A stretch of DNA of 64,000 bases, from positions 57,018,237-57,082,236 of the forward strand of contig NC_088302.1 of the NCBI RefSeq assembly GCF_032854445.1, written 5' to 3'. A program made the position numbers and the translations under genes. The stretch comes from Liolophura sinensis (Eukaryota; Mollusca; Polyplacophora; Chitonida; Chitonidae). Below the pieces are notes generated by a model. It was not told where the DNA came from, did not search any database, and saw nothing but the letters and a program-made list of their open reading frames with translations. Positions 7,122-59,955 of the stretch are shown here, in pieces (within the stretch, counting starts at the first letter, position 1; each line of letters opens with the position of its first letter).

Positions 7122-7373
7122 GATTGGGGTTTATGTCGTACTCCAGAATAATTCACTTACACAACAGCGGCCAGCATTATGGTGAGAGGAAACTGGGCAG
7201 TGCCTGGGGGACCATCAGCAGGTTGCTGCCAGACCTTCTTACGTTCGGCTAGAGAGGAAGCCAGCATGAGCTGGACTTGAACTCACAGCGACCGCATTGA
7301 CAAGATGTTCCTGGGTGATTACACAGCACTAGCGCCCTAATCAAATCGGCCACGGAGGCCCTGCTTTTAATTA
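7084..7373 (-). mobile_element. Full-length tRNA-derived SINE
   Basis: Minus orientation. The tRNA-like head is near 7280-7360, with a B-box-like GAGTTCAAGTCCAG on the minus strand near 7276-7289 and an A-box-like tggccgatttg. The tail is (TTTA)n on the plus strand at 7095-7121. Imperfect target-site duplications, gcttttcatta (7084-7094) and gcttttaatta (7363-7373), flank it. It shares its body with the element at 54003-54197. From memory, this family is widespread in molluscs. Confidence 0.85.
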
Positions 7374-11900: not shown

Positions 11901-14900
11901 TCTTTCAGTCTCCTGAAATTCTACATTTGTGGCGCTTGACTTACCAGGCTTCTTCAAATTTTAAAGCTTTTTGGCAACTCATAAATGAAATATTTCTAAG
12001 TACAGTTTAAAACACAAATCAAAAGATATACTAAATTATTTTTCTGACCAAAATGTTCTGACCATAACATAACGGCACATATACAGGTAAATGTTCACTA
12101 ATACTAGTACATGTAAATGTAGGACATCTAGAGGTCATGCCATTACTCAGCACTTAATACTCCACTAGTAACTGTTACTGCCAATCATTTTCATGGCACC
12201 AAACTAGCACTTACTTTTCGACTATTTATAAAATAACATAAAATTCCACTAACATAAAATTCTACTGAGCACTGTGGATAAGTCAAGTTTGTTTGAACAA
12301 AATGAGCTTACCACGACTTCTGGCATGTGCATCTTCTCAATGACTTGCTTCATAACTTCCATTGGGCAGGGTGACCCCGCCATGATTCCTGTGTACAGAC
12401 TGGACAGATCAAAGCGGCTAAACTCTGGGTGGTTCAGCATGTCAATGAACATGGTGGGAACACCATACACAGAGGTGCAGCTGAAACCATACACAACACA
12501 TAAACCACAATCTGAGTTAACTACAACCAACCACAATCTGGCATGTGTAAGTGAATCACATCAAACCACAATCTAAGTGACCCACCACAAACCACAATCT
12601 GAGTGAACCACAACAACCACAATCTGAGTGAACCACCACAAACCACAATCTGAGTGAACCACAACAGCCACAATCTGGGTGAACAACCACAAACCACAAT
12701 CTCAGTGAACTACCACAAACCACAATCTCAGTGAACAACAACAAAACACAATCTCAGTGAACAACCACAAACTAAAATCTCAGAGAACCACCACAAAACA
12801 CAATCTCAGTGAACCACAACAAACCACAATTTCAGTGTACCACAACAAACCACAATTTCAGTGTACCACCACAAACCAAACTCTGAGTGAACCCATAACA
12901 AACTAGTCTCAACAAACCACAACATCTTGAAATATACCCTTTATCTAGTCAATAATTTGTGTTCTGAAAACCTAACGTTTCCTCCTGAACAATGAGGCCA
13001 GGCTCCAATCATGGGGTGCAGAACACACACCAAGCACCTTAGGTGGAGATTTGTAGACAGCTTGTCGCCATGCCAAAGCAGTACTACATTGGTACCATCA
13101 TACAAATACATACAGACTGGACAGTTCAAAGTGGCTAAACTCTAGATGGTTCAGCATGTTGATGAACGTGGTGGGGTCGCTGTACACAGAGGTGCTGCCA
13201 CCAACAACACATCAACCACAACAAAATACAATCTGAGTGAGCCACCACAAACCATAATCTCAGTGAACAACAACAAAACACAATCTCAGTGAACCACTAC
13301 AAACCGCAATCTGAGTGAACAACCACACACCACAATCTGAGTGACCAACCACAACCACAATCTCAGTGAACTACCACAAATCACAATCTGAGTGAACAAC
13401 CACACACCACAATCTGAGTGAACAACCACAACCACAATCTCAGTGAACTACCACAAATCACAATCTGAGTGAACAACAAAACACAATCTCTGTGAACAAC
13501 CATAAACCACAATCTGAGTGAACCACCACAAACCACATCTCAGTGAACCACAACAAACCACAATCTCTGAACACCCCACAAACCACAATCTCAGTGAACT
13601 ACCACAATCTCAGTGAACAACCACAAACCACAATCTCAGTGAACATCCACAAACCACACTCTCAGTGAACAACCACAAACCACAATTTCAGTGAACCACA
13701 ACAAACCACAATTTCAGTGTACCACCACAAACCAAACTCTGAGTGAACCCATAACAAACTAGTCTCAACAAACCACAACATCTTGAAATATACCCTTTAT
13801 GTAGTCAATAATTTGTGTTCTGAAAACCTAACGTTTCCTCCTGAACGATGAGGCCAGGCTCCAATCATGGGGTGCAGAACACACACCAAGCACCTTAGGT
13901 GGGGATTTGTAGACAGCTTGTCACCATGCCAAAGCAGTACTACATTGGTACCATCATACAAATACATACAGACTGGACAGTTCAAAGTGGCTAAACTCTA
14001 GATGGTTCAGCATGTTGATGAACGTGGTGGGGACGCCGTACACAGAGGTGCAGCTGTAACCACTGACAACACATCAACCACAACAAAACACAATCTGAGT
14101 GAGCCACCACAAACCATAATCTCAGTGAACAACAACAAAACACAATCTCAGTGAACCACTACAAATCACAATCTGAGTGAACAACAAAACACAATCTCAG
14201 TGAACAACCATAACCACAATCTCAGTGAACCACCACAAACCACATCTCAGTGAACCACAACAAACCACAATCTCTGAACAACCACAAACCACAATCTCAG
14301 TGAACTACCACAATCTCAGTGAACAACCACAAACCACAATCTCTGTGAATCACCATAAACCACAATCTGAGTGAACTCATAACAAACTAGTCTCAGCAAA
14401 CCATAACATCTTCAAATATACCCCTATATGTAGTCAATAATTTGTGTTCTGAAAACCTAACGTTTCCTCCTGAACGATGAGGCCAGCCTCCAATCCTGGG
14501 GTGCAGAACACACACCAAGCACCTTCAGTGGGGATTTGTAGACAGCTTATCGCCATGCCAAAGCAGCACTACAGTGGTACCATCATAAAAATACATACAG
14601 ACTGGACAGGTCAAAACAGCTAAACTCAGCATGTTGATGAACATGGTGGAGACGCCATACAGAGAGGTGCAGTTGAAAGCACAGACAACATATAAAACAC
14701 AATCTGAGTGAACCACAACAAACCACAATCTGACATGTCTGAGTCAGCCACAACAAACCACAATATGACATGCCTGAACATGTCTAAACCACAATCTCAG
14801 TAAGCCACAACACACCACAATCTGAGTAAACCACAATTTGCGTGAACCATAACAAACCACAATCTGACATGTCTGAGTCAGCCACAACAAACCACAATCT

Positions 14901-17900
14901 GACCTGTGTGAGCGAACCACAGTCAACCACAATCTGACATTTTTGAACATGTCTAAACTACAATCTGATTGAACCACAACAAACCACAATCTGATTGAAC
15001 CACAACAAACCACAATCTGAGTGAGCCACAACAAACCACAATCTAAGTGAAGCACAACAAACCACAATCTGAATGAAGCACAACAAACCACAATCTGAGT
15101 GACAACACAACAAACCACAATCTGAGTGAAGCACCACAAATCACAATCTGAGTGAACCACAACAACCCACAATCTGAGTGACAACACAATATCAACTACA
15201 TGTATACCCTACATGCAGTACATCATTTGTGTTCTGAAAACCTACCGTTCATCCTGGGCAGCCTGCAAGGTGGGACCAGGCTCAAACCCTGGGCTGGGGA
15301 AGACACAGCATGCACCGTGGGTGGGGATTTGTAGACAGCCTATAACCATGCCAAAGCAGTGATACAGTGGTACCGGCATACAAATGCGACTGTCCTGTCA
15401 AGATAAAGATAGGAAGTTCATGAACAGCCAGTCGTGGGGAAGTGTCGCCTAACAACAGCGTCTCGCAGCACGTACAAACACCTTAAAACCATGTGTACAG
15501 TGTCGCCTAACAACAGCGTCTCACAGCACACACAAGGACTTGAAAACAATGTGTACAGTGTCACCTAACAACAGCGTCTCGCAGCACGTACAAACACCTT
15601 AAAACCATGTGTACAGTGTCGCCTAACAACAGCGTCTCGCAGCACGTACAAACACCTTAAAACCATGTGCACAGTGTCGCCTAACAACAGCGTAACGCAG
15701 CACGTACAAACACCTTAAAACCATGTGTACAGTGTCACCTAACAACAGCGTCTCGCAACACGTACAAACACCTTAAAACCATGTGTACAGTGTCACCTAA
15801 CAACAGCTTCTCACAGCACACACAAACACCTTAAAACCATGTGTACAGTGTCGCCTAACAACAGCGTCTCGCAGCACGTACAAACACCTTAAAACCATGT
15901 GTACAGTGTCACCTAACAACAGCGTCTCGCAGCACACACAAACACCTTAAAACCATGTGTACAGTGTCGCCTAGCAACAGCGTCTCGCAGCACGTACAAA
16001 CACCTTAAAACCATGTGTACAGTGTCACCTAACAACAGCGTCTCGCAACACGTACAAACACCTTAAAACCATGTGCACAGTGTCACCTAACAACAGCTTC
16101 TCACAGCACACACAAACACCTTAAAACCATGTGTACAGTGTCACCTAACAACAGCTTCTCGCAACACGTACAAACACCTTAAAACCATGTGTACAGTGTC
16201 GCCTAACAACAGCGTCTTGCAGCATGTACAAACACCTTAAAACCATGTGTACAGTGTTGCCTAACAACAGCGTCTCGCAGCACGTACAAACACCTTAAAA
16301 CCATGTGTACAGTGTCGCCTAACAACAGCGTCTCGCAGCACGTACAAACACCTTAAAACCATGTGTACAGTGTCACCTAACAACAGCGTCTCGCAACACA
16401 CACAAACACCTTAAAACCATGTGTACAGTGTCGCCTAACAACAGCATCTCGCAGCACGTACAAACACCTTAAAACCATGTGTACAGTGTCACCTAACAAC
16501 AGCGTCTTGCAGCACGTACAAACACCTTAAAACCATGTGCACAGTGTCACCTAACAACAGCTTCTCACAGCACGTACAAACACCTTAAAACCATGTGTAC
16601 AGTGTCGCCTAACAACAGCGTCTTGCAGCATGTACAAACACCTTAAAACCATGTGTACAGTGTCACCTAACAACAGCGTCTCGCAGCATGTACAAACACC
16701 TTAAAACCATGTGCACAGTGTCGCCTAACAACAGCGTCTTGCAGCACGTACAAACACCTTAAAACCATGTGCACAGTGTCACCTAACAACAGCTTCTCAC
16801 AGCACGTACAAACACCTTAAAACCATGTGTACAGTGTCACCTAACAACAGCGTCTCGCAGCACGTACAAACACCTTAAAACCATGTGTACAGTGTCACCT
16901 AACAACAGCGTCTCGCAGCACGTACAAACACCTTAAAACCATGTGTACAGTGTCACCTAACAACAGCGTCTTGCAGCACGTACAAACACCTTAAAACCAT
17001 GTGCACAGTGTCACCTAACAACAGCTTCTCACAGCACGTACAAACACCTTAAAACCATGTGCACAGTGTCGCCTAACAACAGCGTCTTGCAGCACGTACA
17101 AACACCTTAAAACCATGTGTACAGTGTCACCTAACAACAGCGTCTCGCAACACGTGCAAACACCTTAAAGCCATGTGCACAGTGTCACCTAACAACAGCG
17201 TCTCGCAACACGTACAAACACCTTAAAACCATGTGTACAGTGTCACCTAACAACAGCGTCTCGCAGCACGTACAAACACCTTAAAACCATGTGTACAGTG
17301 TCGCCTAGCAACAGCGTCTCGCAACACGTACAAACACCTTAAAACCATGTGTACAGTGTCACCTAACAACAGCGTCTCGCAACACGTACAAACACCTTAA
17401 AACCATGTGTACAGTGTCGCCTAGCAACAGCGTCTCGCAACACGTACAAACACCTTAAAACCATGTGTACAGTGTCACCTAACAACAGCGTCTCGCAGCA
17501 CGTACAAAGACTAGCAAACAATGTGTACAGTGTCTTCTAATAACGGCTTCTCACAGCACACACAAAGACTTGAAAACCATGTGTACAGTGCCGCCTAATA
17601 ACAGCTTCTCAAGCACAAACAAAGACTTGAAAACAATGTGTACAGTGTCTTCTAATAACGGCTTCTCACAGCACACACCAAGACTTGAAAACCATGTGTA
17701 CAGTGTCGCCTAACAACAGCTTCTCAAGCACAAACAAAGACTTGCAAACAATGTGTACAGTGTCTTCTAATAACGGCTTCTCACAGCACACACAAAGACT
17801 TGCAAATAATGTGTACAGTGTTGCCTAACAACAGCTTCTCACAGCACACACAAAGACTTGCAAACAATGTGTACAGTGTCTTCTAATAACGGCTTCTCAC

Positions 17901-53984: not shown

Positions 53985-54221
53985 CATACCTAAAAAAAAT
54001 AATGATTTATTTATTTGATTGGTGTTTTAACGCCTTACTCAACAATATATCACTAGCATTATGGTGGGTGGAAACCGGGCACAGCGCGGGGGAAACCCAC
54101 GACCCATCCGCAGGTTGGTGGCAGACCTTCCCACGTACGGCCGGAGAGGAAGCCAGCATAAGCTGGACTTGAACTCACAGCGACCGCATTGGTGAGATTC
54201 ATACCAAGAAAAATAATGATT
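53985..54221 (-). mobile_element. 5'-truncated SINE with target-site duplication
   Basis: The body is 54003-54197, with a (TTTA)n tail on the left, and it stops at cgaccgcattggtgaga, so the tRNA head and A box are missing. Flanking duplications of 22 bases (53985-54006 and 54200-54221) end in aaaataatgatt. Same family as 7084-7373. Confidence 0.85.
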
Positions 54222-55312: not shown

Positions 55313-55439
55313 TCCCAGTGACTGAGATGTTTTCTGAAAGACCGAGATGTTATCTGGAAGATGTCTTCTTGCAATCAACTTAGCGATCATTTGCTTTTGG
55401 ACTTCTGTATGGCTCTGTTAAACAGGCCCCGGAGGACGG

Positions 55440-58400
55440 GAACAGGTGTCTGGACTAAATATGTGACATTCTAATCTGATCTCCCAGAACGACCAAGCTG
55501 TCTTGTAACCAGAGGACGGAGAGCCGCCTGGACTAAACATGTGACAATCTGATCTGATCTCTTAGAACGATCAGGCGGTCTTGTAACTGCAGGCCGGACA
55601 GCCGTCTGGACTAAACATGTGACATTCTGATCTGATCTCCCAGAACCACCAGGCTGTCTTGTAACCATAGGACGTACAGCTATGTGAAGTAAACATGTGA
55701 CATTCTGATCAAATCTCCCAGAACAACCAGGCTGTCTTGTAACTGCAGGCCGGACAGCCGTCTGGACTAAACATGTGACATTCTGATCTGATCTCCCAGA
55801 ACCACCAGGCTGTCTTGTAACCATAGGGCGGACAGCTATGTGAAATAAACATGTGACATTCTGATCAAATCTCCCAGAACAACCAGGCTGTCTTGTAACC
55901 GGAGGACGGACGGCCGTCTCGACTAAACATGTGACATTCTGATCAAATCTCCCAGAACAACCAGGCTGTCTTGTAACTGCAGGCCGGACAGCCGTCTGGA
56001 CTAAACATGTGACATTCTGATCTGATCTCCCAGAACCACCAGGCTGTCTTGTAACCATAGGGCGGACAGCTATGTGAAATAAACATGTGACATTCTGATC
56101 AAATCTCCCAGAACAACCAGGCTGTCTTGTAACCGGAGGACGGACGGCCGTCTCGACTAAACATGTGACATTCTGATCTGATCTCCCAGAACAACCAGGC
56201 TGTCTAGTAACCGGAGGACGGAGAGCCGCCTGGACTAAACATGTGACATTCTGATCAAATCTCCCAGGACAATCAGGCTGTCTTGTAACCATAGGACGGA
56301 GAGCTGTCTAGACTAAACATGTGACACTCTGATCAAATCTACCAGAACAACCAGGCTGTCTTGTAACCGGAGGACAAACGGCCGTGTGGACTAAATATGT
56401 GACATTCTGATCTGTATCTCTAGAACGACCAGGCTGTCTTGTAACCAGAGGACGGAGAGCCGCCTGGACTAAACATGTGACAATCTGATCTGATCTCTTA
56501 GAACGATCAGGCTGTCATGTAACCGGAGGACGGACGGCCGTCTGGACTAAAAATGTGACATTCTGATCTGATCTCCTAGAACGACCAGGCTGTCTTGTAA
56601 CCAGAAAACGGACAGCCGTCTGGACTAACCATGTGACATTCTGATGTGATCTTCCAGAACAACCAGGCTGTCTTGTAACCATAGCACGGGCAGAGGTCTG
56701 GACTAAACATGTGACATTCTGATCAAATCTCCCAGAACAATCAGGCTGTCTTCTAACCAGAGGACGGACGGCCGTCTGCACTAAACATGTGACATTCTGA
56801 TCTGATCTCCTAGAACGATCAGGCTGTCTTGTAACCATAGGACGGAGAGCTGTCTAGACTAAACATGTGACACTCTGATCAAATCTACCAGAACAACCAG
56901 GCTGTCTTGTAACCGGAGGACAAACGGCCGTCTGGACTAAACATGAGACATTCTGATCTGATCTCCAAGAACGATCAGGCTGTCTTGTAACCGGAGGACG
57001 GAGAGCTGTCTAGACTAAACATGTGACACTCTGATCAAATCTACCAGAACAACCAGGCTGTCTTGTAACCGGAGGACAAACGGCCGTCTGGACTAAACAT
57101 GTGACATTCTGATCTGATCTCCCAGAACCACCAGGCTGTCTTGTAACCGGAGGACAAACGGCCGTCTGGACTAAATATGTGACGTTCTGATCTGATCTCC
57201 AAGAACGACCAGGCTGTCTTGTAACCGGAGGACGGACGGCCGTCTGGACTAAAAATGTGACATTCTGATCTGATCTCCTAGAACGACCAGGCTGTCTTGT
57301 AACCAGAAAACGGACAGCCGTCTGGACTCACCATGTGACATTCTGATCTGATCTTCCAGAACAACCAGGCTGTTTTGTAACCATAGGACGGGCAGAGGTC
57401 TGGACTAAACATGTGACATTCTGATCAAATCTCCCAGAACAATCAGGCTGTCTTGTAACCAGAGGACTGACGGCCGTCTGGACTAAACATGTGACATTCT
57501 GATCTGTATCTCTAGAACGACCAGGCTGTCATGTAACCGGAGGACGGACGGCCGTCTGGACTAAAAATGTGACATTCTGATCTGATCTCCTAGAACGACC
57601 AGGCTGTCTTGTAACCAGAAAACGGACATCCGCCAGGACTAAACATGTGACATTCTGATGTGATCTTCCAGAACAACCAGTCTGTCTTGTAACCATAGGA
57701 CGGGCAGAGGTCTGGACTAAACATGTGACATTCTGATCAAATCTCCCAGAACAATCAGGCTGTCTTCTAACCAGAGGACGGACGGCCGTCTGGACTAAAC
57801 ATGTGACATTCTGATCTGATCTCCCAGACCGACCAGGCTGTCTTGTAACCAGGGTCGGACAGCTGTCTGGACTAAACATGTGACATTCTGATCTGATCTC
57901 CCAGAACGATCAGGCTAAATCGTCCGGAGACCGGACGGCCGTCTGGGTTAAACGTGACATTTTGATCTCATCTCCCAGAACGATCAGGTTGTCTCGTAAC
58001 CAGAGGACGGACGGCCGTCTGGACTAAACATGCGACATCCTGATCTGATCCCTTAGAACGACCAGGCTGTCTTGTAACCATAGGAGGGAGAGTCGTCTGG
58101 ACTAAACATGCGACATTCTGATCAGACCTCCTAGAACGATCAGACTGTCTTGTAACCATAGGACGGAGAGCCGTCTGGACTAAACATGTGACATTCTGAT
58201 CTGATCTCAGATCTCCCAGAACGATCAGGCTGTCTTGTAACCATAGGACGGAGAGCCGTCTGGACTAAACATGTGACATTCTGATATGATCTCTCAAAAC
58301 GATCAGGCTGTCTTGTAATTGGAGGATGGAGAGCAGTCTGGACTGAGCATGTGACATTCTAATCTGATCTCCCAGAACGATCAGGCTGTCTTGTAACCGG

Positions 58401-59880
58401 AGGACAAACGGCCGTCTGGACTGCAAATGCGACATTCTAATCTGATCTTTCAGAACGATCAGACTGTCTTGTAATCATAGGACGGAGAGCCGTCTGGACT
58501 GAACAAGAGACATTCTGATCTGATCTCCCGGAATGACCAGGCTGTCTTGTAACCGGAGGAAAGACAGGTGATGGATAGCCGTCTGGACTGAACAAGAGAT
58601 ATTCTGATCTGATCTCCCAGAATGACCAGACTGTCTTGTAACCGGAGGAAGGACAGGTCATGGAGAGCTGTCTGGACTGAACAAGAGACATTCTGATCTG
58701 ATCTCCCGGAATGACCAGGTTGTCTTGTAACCGGAGGAAGGACAGGTGATGGAGAGCCGTCTGGACTAAACAAGAGATATTTTGATCTGATCTCACAGAA
58801 TGACCAGGCTGTCTTGTAACCGGAGGAAAGACAGGTGATGGAGAGCCGTCTAGACTGAACAAGAGACATTCTGATCTGATCTCCCAGAATGACCAGACTG
58901 TCTTGTAACCAGAAGACGGACAGGTGATGGGGAGCCGTCTGGACTGAACAAGAGACATTCTGATCTGATCTCCCAGAATGACCAGGTTGTCTTGTAACCG
59001 GAGGAAGGACAGGTGATGGAGAGCCGTCTGGACTGAACAAGAGACATTCTGATCTGATCTCCCGGAATGACCAGGCTGTCTTGTAACCAGAGGAAGGACA
59101 GGTGATGGAGAGCCGTCTGGACTGAACAAGAGACATTCTGATCTGATTTAGTAGAACGATCAGGCTGTCTTGTAACCACAGGACGGAGAGCCGTCTCGAC
59201 TAAACATGCGACATTCTGATCTGATCTCCTAGAACGACCAGACTGTCTTGTAACCGGAAAAGAAACGGCCGTCTGGACTAACCATGTGACATTCTAATCT
59301 GATCTTTCAGAACGATTAGGCTGTCTTGTAACCATAGGACGGAGAGCCGTCTGGACTAAACATGTGACATTCTGATCTGATTTCGTAGAACGATCAGGCT
59401 GTCTTGTAACCGGAGGACGGACAGGTGATGGAGAGCCGTCTGGACTAAACAAGAGACATTCTGATCTGACCTCCCAGAATGACCAGGCTGTCTTGTAACC
59501 AGAGGAAGGACAGGTGATGGAGAGCCGTCTGGACTGAACAAGAGACATTCTGATCTGATCTCCTAGAATGACCAGGCTGTCTTGTAACCAGAGGAAGGAC
59601 AGGTGATGGAGAGCCGTCTGGACTGAACAAGAGACATTCTGATCTGATCTCCCAGAATGACCAGGCTGTCTTGTAAGCGGAGGAAGGACAGGTGATGGAG
59701 AGCCGTCTGGATTGAACAAGAGACATTCTGATCTGATCTCCCAGAATGACCAAGCTGTCTTGTAACCGGAGGAAGGACAGGTGATGGAGAGCCGTCTGGA
59801 CTAAACAAGAGATATTCTGATCTAATCTCCCAGAATGACCAGGCTGTCTTATAACCGGAGGAAGGACAGGTGTCTGGACT
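55440..59880. repeat. 78/89-bp minisatellite with higher-order structure
   Basis: About 54 units. The 78-bp form contains gacattctgatctgatctcc, cagaacgaccaggctgtctt and ggccgtctggactaaacatg. From about 58500 an 89-bp form adds aggacaggtgatggaga. A block starting at 56515 recurs at 57529, an offset of 1014 bases, or 13 units. Frames stay open on the minus strand because 78 is a multiple of three. Confidence 0.97.
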
Positions 59881-59955
59881 ACTGATGACCGGATCTGTTT
59901 TGTTTTAGTATATACATGTATACAAATGTAGGCATGTAAAGCACTTAATACTTAC

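Follow-up and report, generated by a model that had tools for sequence, protein, structure and literature searches.

Decayed copies of a two-exon fusion in an intron of a chiton acyl-CoA synthetase gene, the probable remains of one tandem duplication multiplied with a short repeat

Internal gene duplication with intron creation was reportedly described by Gao and Lynch in 2009. That study is cited on internal gene duplication in the available text of PMC3488318 and PMC7605655, and for potato the available part of PMC4974935 reports a duplication that spans an exon-intron boundary. Degenerate exon duplicates lying in introns are a recognised class, as excerpts of two further papers set out (PMC12343006, PMC9013439). 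According to the available text of the first, about 4-7% of vertebrate genes have full-exon events, while partial, inter-boundary and intronic events affect significantly more genes than full-exon events do (PMC12343006). The case described here is a degenerate intronic tandem exon duplication of this recognised class, in which the duplicate is a two-exon fusion, is tripled and lies in a minisatellite intron of a chiton gene. Among the papers listed in literature searches, titles and abstract openings contained no description of this case, and the available text of a chiton genome comparison makes no mention of minisatellites or tandem repeats (PMC12005716).

The window analysed, C8:57018237-57082236, is a 64,000-nt stretch of the genome of Liolophura sinensis; the chiton genome paper (PMC11068029) uses the name Liolophura japonica in its available text, and a correction (PMC12441733) gives the species of that paper as L. 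sinensis. The minus strand of the window carries an acyl-CoA synthetase gene. We take this gene to be ACSF2-like. Exons from 41470 down to 8863 were placed by two bacterial homologues, and all 12 introns placed by hand have GT..AG ends, indicating a usable splice path in the live gene. Exons 9 and 10 (E9 and E10) keep the numbering of the earlier note and are the eighth and ninth coding exons found here. The best match of the E9+E10 peptide was PRK12583 (NCBIfam; 2.3e-47), this fragment scoring far under the model's whole-protein cut-off. In nine ORFs of the window the sole Pfam domain found was AMP-binding, which came from the ORF that includes the exon at 39412-39284, and a tRNA search of the window found none. 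In the last coding exon (8984-8848, minus strand), the homology to the C-terminal motif switches reading frame around 8922, and the reading frame that enters the exon stops early; this frame change may be a real allele, an assembly error or a sequencing error. Elsewhere, a cluster of six AMP-binding matches lies at C10:2512613-2619849, four of them in open frames of 564-569 codons and one with two stops.

The window lies about 1.3 Mb from the scaffold end, and tandem arrays make up 59.6% of it. The two flanking 50-kb stretches have tandem-array fractions of 0.32 and 0.36, and single 50-kb stretches taken from C6 and C10 have 0.05 and 0.08. Within the gene, the tandem-repeat fraction is at least 0.42 in nine of the 12 mapped introns (8985-39283) and is 0.94, 0.96 and 0.57 in the three longest, and array periods differ among the long introns (37/53, 46/49, 65, 58, 26, 74 and 75 bp, and others). 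The unit of a 78-bp array at 55432-59881 was matched 55 times genome-wide, all within C8:57073668-57078117, by a search in which one candidate region was scored and common words may be missed. A 144-nt element outside the arrays has two dispersed copies (54055-54198 and 7173-7306; 80% identical).

The earlier note had described three tandem chimeric copies inside an intron at 12481-15245, separated by the same minisatellite. Indeed, this interval is exactly the E9-E10 intron (2765 bp, minus strand, GT..AG ends), the three copies are present, and a 26-bp repeat occurs in every spacer. In transcript order on the minus strand, E9 (15246-15394; 149 nt), a live coding exon by homology, frame and splice sites with the donor ACG/GTAGGT, is followed by spacer 1 (14673-15245; 573 nt), which is the first ancestral intron copy, and by the fossil chimeric exon copy C (14461-14672; 212 nt). 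Spacer 2 (14054-14460; 407 nt), the fossil copy B (13832-14053; 222 nt), spacer 3 (13197-13831; 635 nt), the fossil copy A (12976-13196; 221 nt) and spacer 4 (12481-12975; 495 nt) come next, and the live coding exon E10 (12312-12480; 169 nt) closes the series. Every copy reads as nt 1-87 of E10, 3 extra nt and then E9 from nt 10, and in all three the blastn similarity stops at nt 87 of 169 in E10 and begins at nt 10 of 149 in E9. The single common joint between a 5' part of E10 and a 3' part of E9 was thus recovered, but the E9 part covers almost all of that exon.

Short chance words, named in the earlier note as what would speak against homology, were not what blastn returned. The matches within the window have E values of 2.6e-27 to 8.9e-15. 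Copy A, used as a DNA query against the 609-Mb genome, matched five places, namely the three copies, E9 (E 4.6e-30) and E10 (E 1.9e-23), in a search that scores the best candidates only, here five of five. Chance words as the source of the similarity are ruled out by the blastn E values and the genome search. Nor did the assembly show another copy of the gene, or a haplotig, at a different place that could be the source, since the E9+E10 peptide gave seven places and the DNA five, all at this locus. Among the 14 coding exons tested (the first, 41491-41330, with approximate ends), further matches in the window (E 0.01) were found for E9 and E10 only. Unmasked direct-repeat pairs less than 6 kb apart number nine in the window, and every one is formed by the copies, E9 and E10. 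The tandem-repeat fraction between the members of these pairs is 0.56-1.00, whereas for the 20 such pairs in the controls it was at most 0.23. Pairs separated mainly by tandem repeat were therefore 9/9 in the window versus 0/20 in the controls, which are a small sample of four 50-kb stretches (two beside the window, one on C6 and one on C10) with differing repeat content. The intronic copies are homologous to exons of the same gene, lie on the same strand and in tandem, and carry intron flanks duplicated with them.

The flanks bear on how the copies arose. The donor-side 60 nt of the intron of E9 are identical to the flanks of the copies at 44-47 of 59-60 positions, and the acceptor-side 60 nt of E10 at 51/60 positions for C and 40-41 of 50 for B and A. 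Since intron flanks were copied on both sides, from upstream of E10 and from downstream of E9, the pattern supports a genomic tandem duplication with both breakpoints in exons, as the earlier note had proposed, and not retroposition, which is excluded by the reversed order of the parts (E10, then E9) and the presence of these flanks. The proposal of four ancestral introns in a row also fits, as all four spacers are of E9 type at the donor side and of E10 type at the acceptor side. To judge from this anatomy, what was duplicated is the genomic stretch E9(10-149)-intron-E10(1-87), repeated head-to-tail. Relative to the exons, all three copies have in common the joint, a deletion of 8 nt close to where the E9 part ends, a TAG and a G>T change at donor position +1, which points to one founder that was multiplied later. 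The observation was confirmed, and the three copies are very probably the decayed remains of one old tandem duplication, multiplied together with a short repeat.

One event followed by neutral decay should leave the two halves equally diverged, but the changes common to all copies are unequal, at 24/132 for the E9 part and 4/77 for the E10 part (Fisher p = 0.010). On these counts the E10-derived part is nearer its exon than the E9-derived part, which was unexpected, and an equal age of the halves was not borne out. Changes after the copies split showed no significant difference (11/132 versus 11/77, p = 0.24). In the E10-side intron flank, the count of shared changes depends on the alignment (5 in 55 columns with the end of A misplaced; 2 in 57 where an insertion displaced A and B), and neither count was used, nor the p = 0.0003 computed with the latter. 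The inequality suggests that E10 converted the fossil at an early stage, prior to amplification, and this would explain it; the alternatives are chance and a more complex or two-step founding. In a two-step origin, an older stray intronic copy of E9 would have been joined later to a younger copy of E10, and the halves would differ in age, as the shared changes do. However, the contrast in total divergence is weaker (for B, 28/132 versus 10/87, p = 0.07), the E10-side intron flank is itself diverged to the extent given above, and two events would be needed where one with conversion is enough, so we consider this origin unlikely.

Under the preferred single duplication, which would have started near nt 10 of E9, taken in the intron and stopped at nt 87 of E10, the anatomy implies that one chimeric exon would have formed, consisting of the 5' part of E10 and the 3' part of E9 and equipped with the acceptor of E10 and the donor of E9. 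Its splice sites have fared unequally. The acceptor-like context claimed for the copies is kept in B, with AG in the ancestral place, but not in C, which has AA there, nor fully in A, where a local deletion has left the AG two bases further in. The claimed loss of the donor stands in full, with +1 G>T in 3/3 copies. Sites were scored with a matrix made from 12 donors and 13 acceptors of the same gene with a light pseudocount. Its separation is weak, live sites scoring 0.0-12.2 (acceptors) and -3.0 to 9.8 (donors) when left out, and it gives the donor sites of the copies 4.6 despite the lost GT; it was used for rough background comparison only. On this scale, the AGs of A (5.4) and B (4.9) fall within the range of live acceptors, 7/13 of which score lower, and the case for silence therefore rests on the donors. 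The cryptic GTs after A and B are of ordinary background strength. By sequence, donor and acceptor are paired only at E9 and E10, which would leave one longer intron.

The in-frame TAG that had been noted in at least A and B is present, in the frame of E9, in all three copies including C, and A and B each have two more stops. Read from E9 through a copy into E10, the frame runs into a stop after 64 (A), 82 (B) or 98 (C) residues, of which the first 49 are from E9; from its own shifted AG, copy A stops after 81 residues. Today's exons, used as proxies for the founder, give a stop after 78 residues without the filler at the joint and 94 with it. The shared changes in the E9 part are not significantly uneven over codon positions 1:2:3 (7:6:11, p = 0.42), nor are those of both parts together (p = 0.16). 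Past coding use of the chimera was rejected on this codon-position pattern and on the founder proxies being out of frame. As alternative or mutually exclusive exons the copies would have an intact acceptor and donor and a kept frame, but all three have lost the donor +1 G and give a premature stop between E9 and E10, and C has AA in place of the acceptor AG. The earlier view of fossil rather than alternative exons is supported by the lost donors, the stops and the codon-position pattern.

The copies share with poison exons a premature stop on inclusion, but not usable splice sites at both ends. In such a role, one copy, most likely B or A, would be conditionally spliced via a cryptic donor and would lower the enzyme level, as the premature stop and the acceptor scores of B and A could allow. 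However, the ancestral donor +1 G is gone from every copy, the best cryptic donors score 4.3-5.2 where GTs scoring at least 4 occur about 7 times per kb of strand, C is without AG at the ancestral site, and the codon positions carry no significant signal of constraint. We thus regard a functional poison exon as very improbable, and the copies probably do nothing now.

Site patterns give the order of multiplication. The E9 part has 132 gap-free columns, in 24 of which E9 differs from every copy; in 3 columns A and B stand together apart from E9 and C, in 4 only C is changed, in 2 only A, and 1 has three states; a single column (A and C versus E9 and B) runs against the tree. The 77 columns of the E10 part include 4 shared changes, 3 uniting A and B, 4 in C only, 3 in A only and 1 with three states. 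A and B are identical at 129/132 positions of the E9 part and 84/87 of the E10 part, while C is identical to A or B at 122-123/132 and 66-69/77. The copy tree read from these patterns is (C,(A,B)). The two units of the latest duplication, 12564-13523 and 13430-14376, have 90% identity including gaps. This A/B unit ends in the minisatellite on both sides, indicating that the later exchange used the minisatellite, which the founding breakpoints did not. Together with the single founder, this agrees with the suggestion that the duplicate was copied further by unequal exchange. Over exon parts and donor-side flank, A and B differ at 7/255 sites (2.7%), about twice the heterozygosity of 1.22-1.26% given in the available text of PMC11068029; the last duplication step therefore looks recent, at about twice the age of an average allele pair if A and B have not been homogenised. 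Copy A or B being a false duplication of one haplotype is scarcely credible: their divergence is near the published heterozygosity of about 1.24% (PMC11068029), but their spacers differ by indels and length (407 versus 635 nt), the HiFi reads average 8,347 bp by the same available text, longer than the 2.8-kb intron although coverage is 14-fold, and copy C would be left unexplained.

Taken together, the history with by far the best standing, which we hold to be very probable, is one tandem duplication that gave a poison exon, followed by loss of the donor, amplification in the minisatellite and decay without function. As the founder proxies suggest, the hybrid would have acted as a poison exon from the start, provided that the splice sites it inherited were both working, because its joint is out of frame and inclusion would put a stop codon into the message. 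Loss of the donor +1 G would have made it harmless, after which the spliceosome would join E9 directly to E10 and treat the whole insert as intron. Unequal exchange within the shared 26-bp minisatellite would then have multiplied the silenced unit to three, first separating C from the ancestor of A and B, and recently A from B, and the copies would now be decaying. The order of duplication, donor loss and amplification is the likeliest one, judged from which changes are shared, a pattern that conversion could imitate; placing donor loss ahead of amplification requires that conversion did not spread the shared +1 change. Going further, minisatellite and chimeric exon may form a higher-order repeat whose copy number is still changing in populations, with exchange with E10 keeping that part young and A or B serving conditionally as a weak poison exon with a copy-number-dependent dose, but to this we give very little credence.

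The locus is a legible case of a gene surviving a duplication that cut two exons, in which the hybrid would have been silenced at its donor and then multiplied as intron. It illustrates one way in which capture of coding sequence can enlarge an intron, the founding breakpoints being in exons and the later ones in the minisatellite. Should copy number prove variable within the species, the locus would offer a natural test of the burden of fossil exons on splicing; unless copy number is polymorphic or a copy is used, its interest is moderate to low. Among known systems, the copies resemble tandem exon duplications that leave a degenerate or unannotated exon in an intron (PMC9013439), called an 'intronic match' in Exonize (PMC12343006), in being exon-like, on the strand and in the gene of their parents, beside them and with intron flank copied. 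Unlike that class, they fuse parts of two exons, are present three times and belong to a unit that includes a minisatellite. Like internal gene duplication with intron creation, as far as the available accounts go, the event was segmental, lay inside a gene and took in exon and intron, but here the mature gene would gain no intron; one intron would lengthen and swallow the duplicate. As in the known boundary-crossing duplication, the block spans an exon-intron boundary and former exon would be spliced out as intron. In contrast to that case, where a new intron with a new donor arose, the chiton gene keeps its original donor and acceptor.
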